Shown: piece by piece, positions 51,849-58,318 of the stretch
Layout: the number at the start of each line of letters is the position of its first letter
Numbering within the stretch: position 1 is the stretch's first letter
Origin: Chthoniobacter flavus
GTDB lineage: Bacteria; Verrucomicrobiota; Verrucomicrobiia; Chthoniobacterales; JACTMZ01
DNA: 58,318 nucleotides
Assembly: GCA_945871065.1 (NCBI GenBank)
Contig: CAMBUL010000006.1
Span: 1-58,318 of the forward strand
Reading direction: 5' to 3'
Made by a program: the position numbers and the translations under genes
Notes under the pieces: generated by a model
Databases searched by the model: none
Told to the model about the DNA's origin: nothing
What the model saw: only the letters and a program-made list of their open reading frames with translations

Positions 51849-51925
51849 GGAGCCTTAGCTCAATTGGTTAGAGCGCTGCCCTGTCACGGCAGAGGTTGCG
51901 GGTTCGAGTCCCGTAGGCTCCGCCA
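51849..51925 (+). tRNA. tRNA-Asp (anticodon GTC), CCA encoded; probable integration site
   Basis: 77 nucleotides. GGAGCCT pairs with AGGCTCC, D-arm GCTCAATTGGTTAGAGC, anticodon stem CTGCC/GGCAG with loop CTGTCAC (anticodon GTC), T-arm GCGGGTTCGAGTCCCGT, discriminator G, CCA. The tyrosine integrase gene begins 95 bases after the tRNA 3' end and points away, the usual setting of a tRNA-targeted element. No second copy of the tRNA 3' end was found inside the window. Confidence 0.97.
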
Positions 51926-52020
51926 TCGCATGTCACGCGAGGGCAGGTAGTTGTGGCGGAAATGGCGGTTTGGTTTCATGCAAAATTTCATACCAACCGT
52001 TGACACCACCGCGATGCCAT

Positions 52021-53208
52021 ATGCATCGCGTCCACGTCGTAGGCCACGGATCGTCTGAGGTCAGGATCTATCCTTTGCGCCGCAAACGCTCGCGCTACCG
52101 CTCCTACCAAGTGCGCTGGTATGAGCTGGGTGAGAAGCAGACCAAGACACTGGCCGACCCCCAGAAGGCCAAAGCTTACGCCCAGCAGGTCCATATTTCG
52201 CTGCTCAACGGCGCCCGTGCATCGGAGATTACGCCTCTGGACATCAGTGTCCTGCGGGACGCGGAGTCCATCGCGGCAAAGTTCGGAGTTTCCCTGCCGT
52301 TTGCCATTCGTGAATGGGCCGATACGCGGCAGGCACTGCTCGGCACGCCCATGGTCCCCAAGGCGAGTTGCATGGCACAATTGCTCAAGGAGCTGACCAC
52401 GGTCAATGCGCAGGCTGCAGCCAAGGAATACATCAGGCTGAAGGAAGAGTCGGGGTTGTCATCCCGCCACATCCAGACGGTGCGGCAGCTGTTGACCGGT
52501 TTCGGCCGGAGTTTCGCCGCAGAACAATTGCACGAAATTCCCGTGCAGGCACTGCGGCGATTCATTGACGGGATCAGGGGCAGTGCCCGGACGAAGAACA
52601 ACTTCATCACGTGCTTGCGGACGTTCTTCCTCTGGGCGCAGAAACAGTCCTATCTGCGGCAGGACCGGCCGACCGCGGCAGCTGGTCTGGACAAGAAGCG
52701 CGAGGCTTATGTGGCTCCGCAGATTTTCACGCCGGAGGAAATGCGCCAGCTGTTGGGAAGTTCCGAGGCGGACATGGTTCCTTATCTTGCCATCGCCGCT
52801 TTTGCGGGGCTTCGCAGCTCCGAGATCGGTCGCTTGGATTGGTCGGCGGTGGATTTCGCCTCCGGTTACATCAAGGTTTCTGGGGAGATAACCAAAACGC
52901 AGCAGCGGCGTCTTGTCCCGATCCTCCCGAACCTTCGTGCGTGGCTCTTGCCGCACCTGAAGGGATCCGGCGGCGTGACCTTTGCCACTTACCGCAAGGC
53001 GCTCACGAGGTGTGGTCGCGCGGCGGGCGTTGCCTGGAAGTCGAACGCCTTGCGACACAGTTTTGGAAGCTACCGGCTGGCCGAAGTGCAGGATGCCGCC
53101 AAGGTCAGTCTGGAAATGGGCAACTCCCCGCAGATGCTCTTCAAGCACTACCGTGAGCTCGTCACTCCGGCACAGGCGCACGAGTGGTTTTCGATTTTCC
53201 CGCCGTGA
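52021..53208 (+). CDS. Tyrosine-type site-specific integrase
   Basis: 395 residues from ATG 52021; a TTG at 51970 would add 17 residues. An N-terminal arm-type DNA-binding region (RKRSRYRSYQVRWYELGEKQ) is followed by a SAM-like core-binding domain (about 115-215) and the catalytic domain. Active-site residues: Arg in FAGLRSSEIGRLDW, His and Arg in NALRHSFGSYR, and Tyr in MLFKHYRELVT. It would integrate and excise the element at tRNA-Asp. The 3' end overlaps a convergent regulator gene by 47 bases. Confidence 0.92.
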   Translation: MHRVHVVGHGSSEVRIYPLRRKRSRYRSYQVRWYELGEKQTKTLADPQKAKAYAQQVHISLLNGARASEITPLDISVLRDAESIAAKFGVSLPFAIREWADTRQALLGTPMVPKASCMAQLLKELTTVNAQAAAKEYIRLKEESGLSSRHIQTVRQLLTGFGRSFAAEQLHEIPVQALRRFIDGIRGSARTKNNFITCLRTFFLWAQKQSYLRQDRPTAAAGLDKKREAYVAPQIFTPEEMRQLLGSSEADMVPYLAIAAFAGLRSSEIGRLDWSAVDFASGYIKVSGEITKTQQRRLVPILPNLRAWLLPHLKGSGGVTFATYRKALTRCGRAAGVAWKSNALRHSFGSYRLAEVQDAAKVSLEMGNSPQMLFKHYRELVTPAQAHEWFSIFPP

Positions 53209-53710
53209 CCGGCTGCGATGGTGTGGTGCGCTTGGCTTGGCCCTTGGGTTGCGGCGTTGGCGCCGGCGCGCCCATCGCTTTGGCGATCGTTTCGTGGCAT
53301 TTGGTCAGTCCCGCAATTGCGGGGCCCAGGCATCGCAGCAGGGTATCGTATTCCTGGCGAGTCGGCTCCGGTCCGCCTTCCAGAACCTCGAGTATTCTTT
53401 CGTCAATCTCCTCCAGCAGGCAGGTGATTTCCCAAAGTGCCACCCCGCGATCTCCCACCACCGCGGCCGTGCTGCGGCTGTAGTATTTTCGAACGATAAA
53501 ACACGAATCCCTCATGTGATCGCTGCTGCGACGTGTTCGCATCAATCGCATCCAGCGGACCATCTTCGGCGTGCACTCGTAGCGGTATTGGCCGCCTGCG
53601 GTCAGGATTCGCTCTCCCGGAAGGGCGTTCTTCTGGGCCAAACGGGCGATGTGCATGCGCGAGTATCCGCTGCGCCGGGCGATTTCCGGACAGGTCAGTA
53701 GTTTCGGCAT
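53162..53710 (-). CDS. MerR/excisionase-like helix-turn-helix protein
   Basis: 182 residues. The N-terminus LLTCPEIARRSGYSRMHIARLAQKNALPGE (in part) is a winged-helix of the MerR/excisionase kind, with the wing near GGQYRYECTP. The middle is helical and the last 40 residues are a Pro/Lys/Thr-rich tail. It is convergent with, and overlaps, the integrase gene, so their transcripts interfere. Likely a DNA-binding regulator or directionality factor; the exact role is not known. Confidence 0.6.
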   Translation of the reverse strand: MPKLLTCPEIARRSGYSRMHIARLAQKNALPGERILTAGGQYRYECTPKMVRWMRLMRTRRSSDHMRDSCFIVRKYYSRSTAAVVGDRGVALWEITCLLEEIDERILEVLEGGPEPTRQEYDTLLRCLGPAIAGLTKCHETIAKAMGAPAPTPQPKGQAKRTTPSQPVTAGKSKTTRAPVPE

Positions 53711-53764
53711 AACAGTCTAAAAACGTCACATGTAACATTGCAGAGTTGACACGGCAACAGGTGC

Positions 53765-53977
53765 GTGAACTACACGCATTCCACTCAACATCTCGTCAAA
53801 AAAAAGCAACTTGCCTCCCTTCTGGGAGTTTCTCCCCGAACGGTCGACCAATGGGTCCATCGGCGGTGGATTTCCGTCATTGCCCCGACGGCCCGTCTGC
53901 ACCTCTTTGATCCCGCGGAAGTCCGCGAGGCGCTCAAGAGCCGCTTCGGGATCAAAGCACAGGAGGTGCGGAAGTGA
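53765..53977 (+). CDS. Small excisionase-like helix-turn-helix protein
   Basis: 70 residues from GTG 53765. LVKKKQLASLLGVSPRTVDQWVHRRWISVI is the winged-helix pattern of Xis/MerR-like proteins (in part), with LHLFDPAEVREAL as the wing end. The gene starts a chain of five genes that overlap by four to seven bases. It may be the excision factor or the copy-number regulator. It overlaps the next start by GTGA. Confidence 0.7.
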   Translation: MNYTHSTQHLVKKKQLASLLGVSPRTVDQWVHRRWISVIAPTARLHLFDPAEVREALKSRFGIKAQEVRK

Positions 53978-54411
53978 GGGACCACGCCTTTTTTGAAAAT
54001 GGCCAGCGGATCGGGGTCGAGTTTCGGCACCCGATTGATGAATTTGAGCCGGAGCCGGAGGTGGACGGATATTCCGTAGATCTCTACGGGCTGGTCGAGA
54101 AAGTGGCTTGCAGCTTTCTCACCGGCGATCCGAATATCAATCGCGTTGCCTGGAAATTCCTGCTCGGCAAGCAGTCCTGTTCCATGCGCGACTATGCCCG
54201 CCGCGCGGGTTGCTCGGTGGCGGCGATCTCCAAGCAGATCAACCGGATAGCCCGGCTCTTTGCCATGCCGCTGCACAATCCGCATCTGCGCGTGGCCAGG
54301 CGGGAGATCACCAGAGTCTCATGGAGAAAGCGAAGGCAACGGGCCGGTGGCTGCCGGCCCGCTGCCCGGGAGCTTGTAGGGGAATCCACCGATCAAGGAG
54401 GTCGCCCATGA
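53974..54411 (+). CDS. Hypothetical protein with predicted helix-turn-helix
   Basis: 145 residues from GTG 53974. No known family. An acidic N-terminal half (PIDEFEPEPEVDGYSVDLYG) precedes a likely helix-turn-helix, MRDYARRAGCSVAAISKQINRIARLF (in part), and a basic Arg/Gly-rich C-terminus. The start overlaps the previous stop and the stop overlaps the next start. A DNA-binding role in the replication module is inferred from position. Confidence 0.6.
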   Translation: MRDHAFFENGQRIGVEFRHPIDEFEPEPEVDGYSVDLYGLVEKVACSFLTGDPNINRVAWKFLLGKQSCSMRDYARRAGCSVAAISKQINRIARLFAMPLHNPHLRVARREITRVSWRKRRQRAGGCRPAARELVGESTDQGGRP

Positions 54412-54740
54412 GGAAGCTCCGTGTCAACGATTCGTCGCAGCCGGTGCTGCGGGTGTGCCGTGATAGGTGCCGCGTGCGAGCGGAAGCCGAACTACTCGGG
54501 GAAATGGAAACCATCCTCGAGGAGCTTCGCCAAGGTCCTCCTCCGTTCTCGGTTTCGTTGCGCGAGCCGGGGCGCTTTGTCTCCTTCGTCCTTCTGCCCG
54601 ACGAAGCGGAGAGCGACGGGTGCCAATGGGTGATGATCACCGCCGAGCCCGAGACCCAAGGAGCCGCGGATAGCGTTCTCGCCGCCTCCCAAGCCTGCAT
54701 ACGCGACCATTTGCGTGCGAGGGGAAAGGGGGGGCGATGA
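54408..54740 (+). CDS. Hypothetical protein
   Basis: 110 residues from ATG 54408, preceded by a strong AAGGAGG ribosome site at 54395-54401. Basic N-terminus (MRKLRVNDSSQPVLRVCRDRCR) and a central beta-rich part (FSVSLREPGRFVSFVLLPDE); no recognised family. It is fully overlapped in the chain (ATGA at both ends), which is good evidence that it is translated. Confidence 0.6.
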   Translation: MRKLRVNDSSQPVLRVCRDRCRVRAEAELLGEMETILEELRQGPPPFSVSLREPGRFVSFVLLPDEAESDGCQWVMITAEPETQGAADSVLAASQACIRDHLRARGKGGR

Positions 54741-55660
54741 TGCCCGGCGCGCCGCGGCTTGTCCGCGAACTGCTGGGCGCTTGCCCCACGGCGGGAAACG
54801 GCGTCCACGCCTGGATATTCCAGTGTGCCCTTGCGCTGCGCCGTGCCGGCTACAGCGAGGGCGAGATGGCGGAAATGATCGAAGGAGCCGCGGTCAACTG
54901 CGGCCGCGCACTGGAAGCGCATGAGATTCCCGACGCCATCAAAAACTCGGGTTCAAGGTCGGCACCGTCGGGCACTTCGGCGCGCGGAGGGGGCATGCCA
55001 CCCCCGCGCGCCGCCCGCTGGCCGGCTGCGGCGAGCGGCCGTATCCAAGAGATCATCCGGAGTCGCGAGGCACGGAGTCTCTACGACCTCTGGGAGGCCT
55101 CGCCGGTCCGTCTCGAAGATCATGCTGCCGAACATCTGATCGACAGACTTTTTCCCGGCAATCCCCTGCTGTGTTGCGGTCGCTCCCACGGCCAGTGCGA
55201 AACCACTCCCCGGGAGGAGTGGCGCGGGCAGTTGCGCAAGCTCCAATTCATCGTTCCCAACCCGATGGCTGCCCTTCGAGGCACACGCAAGTCCGACGGG
55301 CAGCCTTCACCGCGGGCCCTGGACAACACCGGCCCGCGGCGCTTCTTGGTCATCGAATTCGACGACAATCTTGGCGAGGACTCGCAAGCAGCCCGGTTGT
55401 GGCACCTCAATTCCCTCAGCCCCCTGGTGCTTGCCGTCCATAGCGGAGGCAAGTCGTTGCACGGATGGTTTTGCACGGTCGGCGACGCCGAATCCGCTTG
55501 GCTCAAGTTCATGCGCTACGCGGTCAGTCTCGGGGCTGATCCTGCCACGTGGACTCGTTGCCAATTTGTCCGGCTTCCCGACGGAATGCGCCGTCCCAAA
55601 GACAAGGCTCCCATCCGCCAGGTCGTCTACTTTTTCAACCCGGAGGCGCTGCCATGTTGA
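54737..55660 (+). CDS. Primase-polymerase-like protein (AEP type, tentative)
   Basis: 307 residues. An N-terminal helical region (about 1-75) and a Gly/Pro/Ala linker (about 73-100) precede the likely catalytic part. Acidic motif FLVIEFDDN (203-211), HSGGKSLHGW (235-244) and RLPDGMRR (279-286) match, in order and spacing, the hhhDhD, sxH and R motifs of archaeo-eukaryotic primases. A Cys/His-rich stretch CCGRSHGQC (146-154) may bind zinc. It is coupled to the helicase gene by a seven-base overlap, as primase and helicase often are in plasmids. The assignment rests on motifs only. Confidence 0.5.
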   Translation: MMPGAPRLVRELLGACPTAGNGVHAWIFQCALALRRAGYSEGEMAEMIEGAAVNCGRALEAHEIPDAIKNSGSRSAPSGTSARGGGMPPPRAARWPAAASGRIQEIIRSREARSLYDLWEASPVRLEDHAAEHLIDRLFPGNPLLCCGRSHGQCETTPREEWRGQLRKLQFIVPNPMAALRGTRKSDGQPSPRALDNTGPRRFLVIEFDDNLGEDSQAARLWHLNSLSPLVLAVHSGGKSLHGWFCTVGDAESAWLKFMRYAVSLGADPATWTRCQFVRLPDGMRRPKDKAPIRQVVYFFNPEALPC

Positions 55661-56913
55661 ACGAAGCCGCAATTCCAGAGCCTGCGGACTCCGCTCCACC
55701 GGTCGCTTCGCCCGAGATGCTCGACTTCTACGCGATTCCCCTGCCTCCGGAGCAAGATCCCGATGAATTGATCAAGCATCGCTTTCTGTGCCGCGGTGGC
55801 GCCCTGCTCCTCGTCGGTCAGAGCGGTATCGGCAAAAGTTCTTTCACCATCCAGTGTGCCGTTCTTTGGAGCTTGGGGCGTGAGGCTTTCGGTTTGGTGC
55901 CGGTCGGCCCTCTGCGGATCTTGATCGTCCAAGCGGAAAATGATCCGGGCGACATGGCCGAGTTCCGGGATGGCGTCCTCAAGGGGCTCGACCTCAAGGA
56001 TGAAGACTGCAAGGGCAGCGTCATCAAGACAGTCTGTGAGGACAGTCGCACGGGCGCCGCCTTCTGCAGTGATGTGCTCCAACCTCTCCTCGAGCGGGAG
56101 CAATTCGATCTGGTGATTGTCGACCCTGCTTTGGCTTACCTGGGAGGCGACGCTAATCAGCAAAAAGACGTTTCGATGTTTCTCCGGAACTGCCTCAATC
56201 CCGTTCTGCATCGCGCCCGCTGCGGTTTGGTCCTGGTCCACCACACCAACAAGCCGCCCCAGTATCAAAGAAATCAGGAGTGGCAAGCCAACGACTATGC
56301 GTATGCCGGATCAGGGTCTGCCGATTGGGCGAACTGGGCGAGGGCAGTCCTCGTGATCCGCACGCTGGGATCTTTTGATTACTTCGAGCTGCGGGCCGGC
56401 AAGCGCGGAAAACGACTCCGGTGGAAAGATAAGAGCGGAAAGGCCTCAGCTTTCACCAAGCATATCGGCCACTCTCAGACGGGTATCTGTTGGCGCGAGG
56501 TGCCCGATGAGGAGATTCTCTCCGCGCCGGGCATCGTCGACAAAGCGAACTCGAGACTCGGGCCCAAGCCGCCTCCGGTGGACGATTTCATGGCGCTCTT
56601 CCCGCACGATTACAAAAATGACCCGTCCGAGGCCCTGCTATCCGCAGGTCAGATCCAGATCGCCTTCCGTCAGCGGGGGTGGTCCAAGAATCATTACAGC
56701 GGGATGTGCGATAACGCCGTCGCGCAGGGAATTCTGGCGCAAACGTCCGGCGGGGGGAAAGGGGGAAAAGTGCTGAGGGGCCGGCCCGACATGGTCGAAG
56801 CCTACCTTCGCAATAAACAGGAGAAAGGCACCATCCTCGAAAATGTGCCCATTGCCAAACCGCCGAAAAAAAAGAAACGGACCCGGAAATCGAAGTTGTC
56901 CAAGTCATCCTAA
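55654..56913 (+). CDS. RepA-like hexameric replicative helicase (AAA/RecA fold)
   Basis: 419 residues from ATG 55654, with a GGAGG site at 55641-55645. Walker A is GQSGIGKSS (55-63), Walker B LVIVDPAL (153-160), and the sensor motif LVLVHHTNK (192-200) follows. This pattern is that of RSF1010 RepA/AAA_25-type helicases. A C-terminal winged-helix-like region (about 330-390) and a Lys/Arg tail (KKKKRTRKSK) suggest DNA contact. It probably unwinds the element's origin, which lies directly downstream. Confidence 0.82.
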   Translation: MLNEAAIPEPADSAPPVASPEMLDFYAIPLPPEQDPDELIKHRFLCRGGALLLVGQSGIGKSSFTIQCAVLWSLGREAFGLVPVGPLRILIVQAENDPGDMAEFRDGVLKGLDLKDEDCKGSVIKTVCEDSRTGAAFCSDVLQPLLEREQFDLVIVDPALAYLGGDANQQKDVSMFLRNCLNPVLHRARCGLVLVHHTNKPPQYQRNQEWQANDYAYAGSGSADWANWARAVLVIRTLGSFDYFELRAGKRGKRLRWKDKSGKASAFTKHIGHSQTGICWREVPDEEILSAPGIVDKANSRLGPKPPPVDDFMALFPHDYKNDPSEALLSAGQIQIAFRQRGWSKNHYSGMCDNAVAQGILAQTSGGGKGGKVLRGRPDMVEAYLRNKQEKGTILENVPIAKPPKKKKRTRKSKLSKSS

Positions 56914-57046
56914 CTCATCCCCGGGACGACTTCGCGCAACTGCACGAGCAACTTGTCGAAGTTATCCTAGCGCCTATAGGGCGCGGATAACTTCAAAGAG
57001 ACAAGTTAGCTCGGCTGGAAAACCCGACTACTCGGGGAAGTTGTCC
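56892..57046. repeat. Iteron-like repeat cluster with nested inverted repeat, candidate replication origin
   Basis: Six near-copies of the 10-mer GAAGTTRTCC occur: 56892-56901 (+), 56901-56910 (+, CAAGTCATCC), 56924-56933 (-, with C), 56958-56967 (+), 56985-56994 (-) and 57037-57046 (+). Around the central pair, AACTTGTC (56950-56957) and GACAAGTT (57000-57007) give a second, outer pair of arms, and GCGCC/GGCGC close the inner loop. The first copy lies inside the helicase gene's 3' end. This is the arrangement of an iteron origin or a set of Rep binding sites. Confidence 0.6.
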
Positions 57047-57360
57047 GCTATTCAGAAAGTGACCTTTCCAAAGGCGCATCGTCACGGGACTGCTCCAGTC
57101 ACTCAGCCATGACAGGCAGGAGGCCATTACGCATGTTCCAGAATTTACGAGAAGCGTTTATCATGCCGCACCGATAAATTCCCCAGCCGGTAATCCGATC
57201 GATCGACTTGGCTTCCTACGGGCGTAATGAATGGCCGGAGATGAACACAAGTTGCTTGCAACTATACTCTTGCGGATATTTCTAGCGAAATTCGGCGCTC
57301 AACTGACCCGGGCGTGCGCCTGACCCTCATCGCAAGCTGTACCCGATCAGGTTGCGCCGT
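57047..57360. other. Gene-free stretch downstream of the repeat cluster
   Basis: About 314 bases with no plausible coding frame, part of it AT-richer than the genes around it (for example 57230-57290). It may be the DNA-unwinding side of the origin or the control region of the element. I see no further repeats of the 10-mer and no recognisable RNA. Confidence 0.4.
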
Positions 57361-57573
57361 CTACTTCCTGCCCTTGTCCAGCGTTGCCACCAAGGCCCGT
57401 AGCCCAAACCCCCTCGGCATATTCCGGGCGATCTCCCAGTTCTGCAGCGTGCGCACAGAAATGCCCAAGTGCTTGGCCGCATCTTCCTGCGTGAACCTGC
57501 GTCTCTCGCGGTAGTCCCTGAGGAGCTTAGCGAATTTCTTCCGTGTCACGATGCCACTACGCGATACGCGCAT
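57361..57573 (-). CDS. XRE-family (Cro/CI-like) repressor
   Basis: 70 residues. RERRRFTQEDAAKHLGISVRTLQNWEIARNMPRG (in part) is a clear helix-turn-helix of the XRE type: FTQEDAAKHLGISVRTLQNW. It occupies nearly the whole protein. It is divergent from the MgsA-C-like gene and transcribed towards the repeat cluster, a position typical of a lysogeny or copy-number control gene. Confidence 0.8.
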   Translation of the reverse strand: MRVSRSGIVTRKKFAKLLRDYRERRRFTQEDAAKHLGISVRTLQNWEIARNMPRGFGLRALVATLDKGRK

Positions 57574-57712
57574 CGGCGAGTCAAGGTCGCACCCTCAATG
57601 CACCCCCAAGGAAATTAGGTTCTGTGCCTTCAACGCGATACCCTTTTGAGATGCGAAAAATGGTGGAAAAAACTGATGGATTCGGTGCGACTCCTGCGAG
57701 AGGCCAAAGGGG

Positions 57713-58309
57713 ATGCAAAAATTCACACCAGACATGTTCGGACTCACGGGGCACGGCATGAGACTTAGAACGATTAGAGGCTACGATTTCGGCGAGGTCA
57801 GCTCGGCCATGCAGAAAGCGATCCGGCGCGGTGAAACTCCATACGCCGGTTACTGGGCCTTGGAGCTGTGGGCCAGTGGCTTTGGCCACTACGTGTGGAA
57901 ACGGCTCCTCACCGTGTCGGCCGAGGATTGCTGGGGCATCATCACCAAGGAGGTCAAAGCGCTGCATGAGTCGTACGCGATGATCAACGCGAACCTTTCC
58001 GGTCGCCGTGCCCGTGGCCGCATCTTCATTTCCAAAGCGGTGATCCTGCTTTGCGCGGCCAAGAAGAGCCGCGATGCCGACCACTTGCAGAACTTCGTTT
58101 ACGACGAAATGCGCGGCATTGATCCGGATACGCTGGCCGATGAACTGCGCAGCGCGCCGGAATACGTGTCGGTTCCCGACTATGCCTTCGATTGCCACAC
58201 GCGCCGCGGCAAGTCGATGGGTAAGACCAAAGCGGACTTCTTCAAGGCCGAGCAGGCGGCGCTGGTGCCGCTGGAGCAAGGGCTCTTTGATCATCTGGTT
58301 GCTGGGTAG
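57713..58309 (+). CDS. Stand-alone protein resembling the C-terminal domain of MgsA/RarA
   Basis: 198 residues from ATG 57713 with a GGGG site just ahead. The segment SSAMQKAIRRGETPYAGYWALELWASGFGHYVWKRLL (in part: AMQKAIRRGETPYAGYWALE) and VSAEDCWG, followed by FISKAVILLCAAKKSRDADHL, parallels the clamp-loader-like C-terminal domain of the MgsA/RarA ATPase (its ALYWLARM, ASEDIGL and YLALAPKSN blocks). The AAA+ ATPase part is missing. A small tail (KAEQAALVPLEQGLFDHLVAG, in part) ends just before the window edge. It may act on single-stranded DNA during element replication. Confidence 0.55.
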   Translation: MQKFTPDMFGLTGHGMRLRTIRGYDFGEVSSAMQKAIRRGETPYAGYWALELWASGFGHYVWKRLLTVSAEDCWGIITKEVKALHESYAMINANLSGRRARGRIFISKAVILLCAAKKSRDADHLQNFVYDEMRGIDPDTLADELRSAPEYVSVPDYAFDCHTRRGKSMGKTKADFFKAEQAALVPLEQGLFDHLVAG

Positions 58310-58318
58310 CTGAGAACT

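Follow-up and report, generated by a model that had tools for sequence, protein, structure and literature searches.

Phage satellites have been described mainly from Proteobacteria and Firmicutes, and the RepA-RepB'-RepC replicon with iterons is that of the IncQ (RSF1010-type) plasmids. The phage-inducible chromosomal islands (PICIs) measure about 12-15 kb, have Pri-Rep genes and a proven helper, and many are located at tRNA genes (PMC6092414, PMC10111431). The phage-inducible chromosomal minimalist islands (PICMIs) of Vibrionaceae are 6.1 kb in size, use one integration site (fis) and encode a DUF3987/DUF5906 primase (PMC10803314). A full-text literature search combining satellites with Verrucomicrobi* or Chthoniobacter returned no description. 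The DNA analyzed here, called the window, is the complete contig C6 (58,318 nt) of a 2.53-Mb Chthoniobacterales (Verrucomicrobiota) assembly of 120 contigs, estimated to be 95% complete. Positions 51926-57182 of the window are rather probably a small replicon that integrated at a tRNA-Asp gene and is built like a phage satellite. The unit has genes to leave the chromosome, to be copied and to enter a tRNA gene, and none for a particle or a conjugation bridge; a satellite-like replicon is the best reading. In the following, C denotes contigs of the same assembly, G genomes or contigs of relatives, and L fetched loci; same-genus relatives were placed in Chthoniobacterales (records JACSRX010000035.1 and JAGYIO010000003.1).

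A first-pass annotation of this DNA had reported an integrase next to a complete tRNA-Asp, small excisionase-like proteins, five overlapping genes ending in a primase-like and a RepA-like helicase gene, and iteron-like repeats. All of these were recovered. The intact tRNA-Asp (gtc), called by ARAGORN at 51849..51925 on the forward strand, is the integration target, with the core probably in the T-arm/3' end. The left end of the element (51926..52020) extends from the tRNA to the start of a forward tyrosine integrase gene (52021..53208, ATG at 52021, 395 aa). The integrase matched PF00589 (E=5.5e-11) and phrog_1 (E=3e-25); residues R265, R345 and Y377 are present, and the His of HxxR is replaced by Asn. 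The end of the integrase gene is overlapped by a reverse gene (53162..53710) encoding a 182-aa protein with an N-terminal excisionase/MerR-type helix-turn-helix (HTH), which matched TIGR01764 and phrog_66, each with E=0.01. This gene is less certain because single-base indels distinguish the window copy from that of the closest relative, L010 (IMGVR_UViG_3300036770_008707 of IMG/VR), which is 84% identical in DNA across 52021-57182 of the window. A search for defence genes gave nothing beyond the weak HTH match of the 182-aa protein.

The integrase is followed by a coupled run of five forward genes, xis70-orf145-orf110-primase-helicase, with start-stop overlaps of GTGA, ATGA, ATGA and ATGTTGA, in this order. 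The first, xis70 (53765..53977, 70 aa), encodes an excisionase/AlpA-like HTH protein matching TIGR01764 with E=1.8e-4 and HTH_17 with 21.3 bits at a cut-off of 27; the TIGR01764 matches of both excisionase-like proteins also lie under the curated cut-off. The second, orf145 (53974..54411), has a weak HTH match (HTH_30, E=0.011), was present in L010 only among the fetched loci, and is a candidate regulator or iteron-binding initiator. No function could be assigned to orf110 (54408..54740), which has ATGA overlaps on both sides. The six forward genes are intact in L010, and dN/dS values against L010, from integrase through helicase, were 0.05, 0.11, 0.29, 0.21, 0.09 and 0.15, indicating that they are kept by purifying selection and are not decaying.

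By its motifs and predicted fold, the 307-aa product of the fourth gene (54737..55660) is an archaeo-eukaryotic-type primase (AEP). In an alignment of 20 sequences, E207-x-D209, S240-x-H242, D268 and R279-x-P281 were invariant, which is the catalytic pattern of archaeo-eukaryotic primases. The nine best PDB matches of the AlphaFold2 model (pLDDT 86) were all AEP proteins, with E-values from 8e-4 to 0.03 and low TM-scores of about 0.3; they included the LigD polymerase 4mky (E=8e-4), RepB' 3h20, the S-2L PrimPol 6zp9 and CAPP 7p9j. Pfam and PHROGs provided no primase name beyond a sub-threshold PriCT match, and sequence-only PDB searches with the helicase and primase gave nothing useful. The fifth gene (55654..56913) encodes a RecA/RepA-like replicative ATPase of 419 aa, assigned as a helicase from its alignment, an AAA_25 match (E=1.6e-21) and the Walker A motif GQSGIGKS.

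Six copies of AAGTYRTCC, four direct and two inverted, were found within 154 bp (56893..57046), overlapping the last codons of the helicase gene and the region just behind it. This number of repeats was reached by none of 200 shuffled sequences, and four of the five exact AAGTTRTCC copies of the whole 58 kb fall in the cluster, which is a candidate origin or operator. All six positions are kept in L010, with 2 mismatches in 54 bases of the iterons and 32 in 248 bases outside (p=0.035). The same iterons were not found in G002, L117, L024, L205 or L206 and are thus specific to the lineage of the window and L010. PICI origins have two iteron sets on either side of an AT-rich stretch; no distinct stretch of this kind between two sets was recognised in the window.

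Homology to L010 stops at 57182, the probable right end of the mobile unit. In L010 it is followed directly by the 3' half of a tRNA-Met and the downstream flank native to that tRNA; the tRNA-Met on C54 matches at 47 of 55 bases, a score that none of 500 shuffles reached. As this tRNA half looks like the expected right attachment site (attR), the unit is probably 51926-57182, or about 5.3 kb, and not a replicon reaching 58318 as first annotated. The junction DNA at 57183..57346 is of no recognised origin, and no tRNA-Asp 3' end could be recognised in it. When tRNA-Asp was aligned to 57050-57360, the score was at shuffle level, and that to C75:1412-1815 was weakly above it (10 of 500 shuffles reached the score); neither was used. 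Beyond the tRNA-Met half, L010:5200-14840 and L021 carry a Mu-like prophage with MuA, MuB, terminase, portal, major head and tape measure genes. The IMG/VR contig G011 was considered as proof of a prophage and rejected, its structural genes being Mu-like (MuA phrog_310, MuB phrog_296) and starting beyond the tRNA-Met half.

Eight complete relatives of 6.0-13.7 kb were found between perfect direct repeats of tRNA ends. Four are in the same genus: at tRNA-Phe in G004 (L024:9525-17376, 28-nt repeat, 7.8 kb), at tRNA-Gly in G005 (L296:9683-15712, 27-nt repeat, 6.0 kb) and in G007 (L297:7423-14361, 31-nt repeat, 6.9 kb), and at tRNA-Arg in G009 (L298:151-8494, 30-nt repeat, 8.3 kb). The G004 element also has a 20-nt repeat, TGTTAGGCCATTGTTAGGCC, close to both ends. 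The others are from Verrucomicrobiota/Lentisphaerota: L091 at tRNA-Leu (60-nt repeat, 8.75 kb; primase 47% and helicase 51% identical to the window), L105 at tRNA-Cys (49-nt repeat, 7.7 kb), L106 at tRNA-Thr (48-nt repeat, 6.8 kb) and L110:4412-18188 at tRNA-Tyr of the cultured Oligosphaera ethanolica DSM 24202 (NZ_JAUSVL010000001.1, about 110.4-124.2 kb; 66-nt repeat, 13.7 kb). Gene content was scanned in the 52 proteins of five of them (L024, L091, L105, L106 and L110), which include five integrases, five AAA_25 proteins and four HTH_17/excisionase proteins. The full Pfam list of these proteins contains only integrase, AAA_25, primase-related, HTH, Sel1 and transposase families, with no large terminase, portal, capsid or relaxase, and no type IV secretion gene. 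The PHROG families gave the same picture in the best 25 of 47. A small-terminase-like protein, matching phrog_57 over nearly its whole length, is encoded in the G004 and G009 elements. The genome of the window itself holds another such element, at tRNA-Lys (L299, C42:19186-23600), with an Xis-like gene, a RecA-like helicase and a primase of 27% identity; the contig stops before an integrase is reached.

The orthologous tRNA-Asp lacks the block in G007, G008 and G009. The DJ-1/PfpI gene follows the tRNA directly in G008 and G009, and PEP-CTERM genes and then DJ-1 follow it in G007. The position is not fixed among relatives, whereas the first-pass annotation had named a fixed position in all relatives as an observation that would speak against its proposal, and the same kind of block was found, whole, between tRNA-end repeats in relatives. 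These empty sites and complete relatives support its proposal of an integrating replicon without a capsid of its own; the repeat of the tRNA-Asp end that it expected failed to appear. In G004:C1 (L025:15211-15460) the left end of the element recurs behind this tRNA-Asp: 51926..52020 is identical, and there are 3 mismatches in about 230 bases counted from the tRNA start, although the flank on the other side of the tRNA is only 84% identical to the window. This pattern suggests that an element was inserted recently at the same tRNA and was truncated afterwards. What is present is the left end with some 20 codons of the integrase, joined to the C-terminal end of another gene, as either a deletion scar or an assembly chimera. 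An intact copy of that other gene is located on C36 of the window genome; C36:22295 was tried as a right flank and rejected, being merely this intact copy.

The right part of the locus has another origin. An XRE repressor gene (57361..57573, reverse strand, 70 aa; PF13560, E=4.5e-10) is followed by a leader repeat (57654..57717, forward) and the forward gene of an MgsA_C-like phage protein (57713..58309, 198 aa; PF12002, E=0.0016; phrog_16866, E=4e-62), which is 99.5% identical in amino acids to its counterpart in the tailed-phage contig L208 (IMGVR_UViG_3300028581_000575). The stretch 57347-58318 is 95% identical in DNA to L208 and 95.7% identical to C54:14974-15945, with further copies at C100:151-857 and C49:149-723. 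Copies of XRE are present on C54, C49 and C68, and XRE adjoins terminase genes in G002, G005, G007 and L117. The XRE-MgsA_C pair occurs in several places of the window genome; C100 has MgsA_C alone, and the C54 copy lies about 180 bp behind a tRNA-Met. In the copies of this genome, ParB and the TET-associated glycosyltransferase (TAGT) are missing between XRE and MgsA_C, and the sequence resumes just behind the TAGT stop. As judged from these comparisons, XRE-MgsA_C is a separate, multicopy, phage-derived insertion outside the replicon; the first-pass annotation was right on the presence of the two genes and had wrongly counted them in the element.

All of this DNA is at the right end of C6, which ends 9 bases past MgsA_C. 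The final 149 bases equal the end of C54, so C6 stops at an assembly repeat. The chromosome expected after tRNA-Asp was found on C75. The first 1.4 kb of this contig (C75:2-1412) encode an amidoligase and a glutamine amidotransferase (GATase) whose order and orientation agree with L208, at 92% identity, and the DNA to the right of them is chromosomal. In L208, 2.9 kb separate MgsA_C from the amidoligase. Judged by synteny, the insertion at tRNA-Asp would thus consist of the 5.3-kb unit, XRE-MgsA_C, an unassembled gap and amidoligase-GATase, about 11 kb in total with an estimated gap length.

Within the unit no large terminase, portal or capsid gene was found, nor any relaxase or type IV secretion gene. 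The earlier remark that capsid and conjugation genes are not visible is true of the unit; as the contig stops at an assembly repeat, it proves nothing alone. The gpA terminase and the portal phrog_21 were absent from the assembly, which is incomplete, leaves the stretch from 58318 to C75 unassembled and was not searched for other terminase types. DNA of the G002 late region was not found in this genome either.

From its genes, the element would behave as follows. The Xis-like protein would switch the integrase to excision, and the excised circle may then replicate from the iterons, to which a small protein of the operon would bind, orf145 being the candidate. The RecA-like helicase and AEP primase of the element would act there, with synthesis by the host polymerase, in the manner of the RepA/RepB'/iteron replicon of IncQ plasmids or the pri-rep-ori of PICIs. 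Particles of a helper phage would then carry the DNA out of the cell and into a new host, where it would enter a tRNA gene. The helper would most likely belong to the local tailed-phage group whose XRE, MgsA_C, amidoligase and GATase genes adjoin the unit.

Several observations weigh against a satellite-like replicon. Excision, replication and packaging are predictions here, the unit itself has no packaging gene, and the genome is a draft of 120 contigs. A second tRNA-Asp 3' end was not found in the assembly at up to 3 mismatches in 24 nt. Integrases of 91% identity sit at tRNA-Asp in the window and at tRNA-Met in L010. Lost or damaged attR tRNA fragments, as well as near-identical integrases with different targets, have been reported for PICIs (PMC10111431). 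Furthermore, the G005, G007 and G009 elements keep the integrase and primase, and their second gene lacks a P-loop, which indicates that the helicase is exchangeable. Finally, in the closest relatives after L010, namely L117 (IMGVR_UViG_3300021605_000013), L206 and G002:C9, the integrase, primase and helicase genes belong to genomes of tailed phages that also have terminase and portal, and the block could be a phage arm.

This last point leads to the strongest rival, a tailed temperate prophage, intact or decayed, of which the block would be the integration and early-replication arm, with late genes beyond the contig end or lost. We consider this unlikely. L117 and L206 have the same gene order, XRE-ParB-TAGT-int-xis-orf-prim-hel-MgsA_C, which in L117 stands beside terminase and portal; identities to the window are 48-50% for the primase, 52-56% for the helicase and 72-73% for MgsA_C. 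G002:C9 joins a primase-helicase pair of 58-61% identity with a gpA terminase, a portal and tail-like genes, and the DNA right of 57347 as well as C75:2-1412 are phage-like, being 95% and 92% identical to L208. The same primase-helicase pair serves the tailed phages L117 and G002:C9, so the module is common to phages and small elements. Several facts speak against the prophage. The order in L208, with gene names given by homology to G002, is portal, endolysin-like, TerL, TerS-like, XRE, ParB, TAGT, HTH, MgsA_C, HTH, DNA ligase, amidoligase and GATase; its terminase side is left of XRE, where the window has the helicase. On C75 the chromosome follows amidoligase-GATase, and the 2.9-kb spacing in L208 means that the unseen gap needs no late genes. 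In the incomplete assembly neither gpA terminase and portal nor late-region DNA of G002 was found, as stated above, and L010 ends directly behind the iterons at a tRNA half. The block of L117 and L206 was also considered as a helper-embedded satellite and rejected as a clean insertion: TAGT is cut at about residue 129, no C-terminal remainder of it follows behind the block, and flanking repeats are absent. An integrating plasmid that replicates itself and moves by transformation or other means, independently of phages, is improbable: its case is a primase fold matching the plasmid primase RepB' among others, a RepA-like helicase with iterons resembling an IncQ-type replicon and a 5.3-kb unit without packaging gene, but profile searches showed no partition, relaxase or copy-control genes in the unit, the relatives carry small-terminase-like proteins or lie in phages, and satellites typically have a set of integrase, excisionase and primase and lack structural genes (PMC10803314, PMC6092414).

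Two observations concern the neighbouring phages. A 63-nt leader repeat stands directly before the start codons of unrelated genes (MgsA_C, a 78-aa gene, the amidoligase and a 336-aa gene). It was found in 22 copies in phages and phage remnants, nearly all just before a start codon: besides the copy of the window, at L208:5944, 7996 and 9383, L210:7784, 9356, 11161 and 15568, L023:13514 and 15044, and further in L078, L079, L080, L081, L082, L083, L209 and L211. Its placement, but not its sequence, is like that of the start-associated sequences in mycobacteriophages of cluster K (PMC3203893). The tailed phages L208, L209, L210 and L023 have genes for ParB-like, TAGT, amidoligase, GGACT cyclotransferase, glutamine-amidotransferase-like and DNA ligase proteins, a set that possibly serves DNA base modification.

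On the reading as a satellite-like replicon, we tentatively suggest, as a possibility that falls short of a probable one, that the element belongs to an undescribed phage-satellite family of Verrucomicrobiota/Lentisphaerota. Its members would combine a tRNA integrase with an excisionase and a stand-alone AEP primase; they would often have a separate RecA-like helicase as well, and in some cases a small terminase. They would ride a local group of tailed phages, with the window copy beside captured regulatory and accessory genes of the helper. Should they indeed be satellites, they would form a lineage particular to a major environmental phylum, and their replication set would be minimal and modular. 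The relative in the cultured Oligosphaera ethanolica DSM 24202 makes excision, replication and packaging directly testable.

Compared with the known systems, the unit is like a PICMI in being tiny, with an integrase, an AlpA/excisionase-like HTH protein, small genes of no assigned function, a primase and no capsid genes. It differs in its stand-alone AEP primase, separate RecA-like helicase, iterons and tRNA site. Its primase has an AEP fold and no Pfam match above cut-off, DUF3987/DUF5906 included, and it does not lie at fis; because primase family and integration site differ, it is not a PICMI. With the Gram-negative (PMC6092414) and helper-embedded (PMC10111431) PICIs it shares an integrase, a candidate regulator, a primase-replication module with iterons and the lack of structural genes. 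PICIs have integrase, replication module and master regulator in a conserved order; the unit has an integrase, primase, helicase and iterons, and an AlpA/Xis-like protein was detected only below curated cut-offs. Primase and helicase are split, however, the phylum is another one, and a size of 5.3 kb against 12-15 kb means that the unit is not a typical PICI. The RepA-RepB'-RepC set of IncQ (RSF1010-type) plasmids is similar in its separate primase and RecA-type helicase beside iterons, and RepB' (3h20) was among the fold matches of the primase; the unit differs in having other iterons, no recognised RepC homologue and a tRNA-integrated state with integrase and excisionase. The early region of L117-type Verrucomicrobiota phages has the same order int-xis-orf-prim-hel with homologous integrase, primase and helicase, but the phage also carries terminase, portal, ParB and XRE on the same side, whereas the window unit ends after its iterons.

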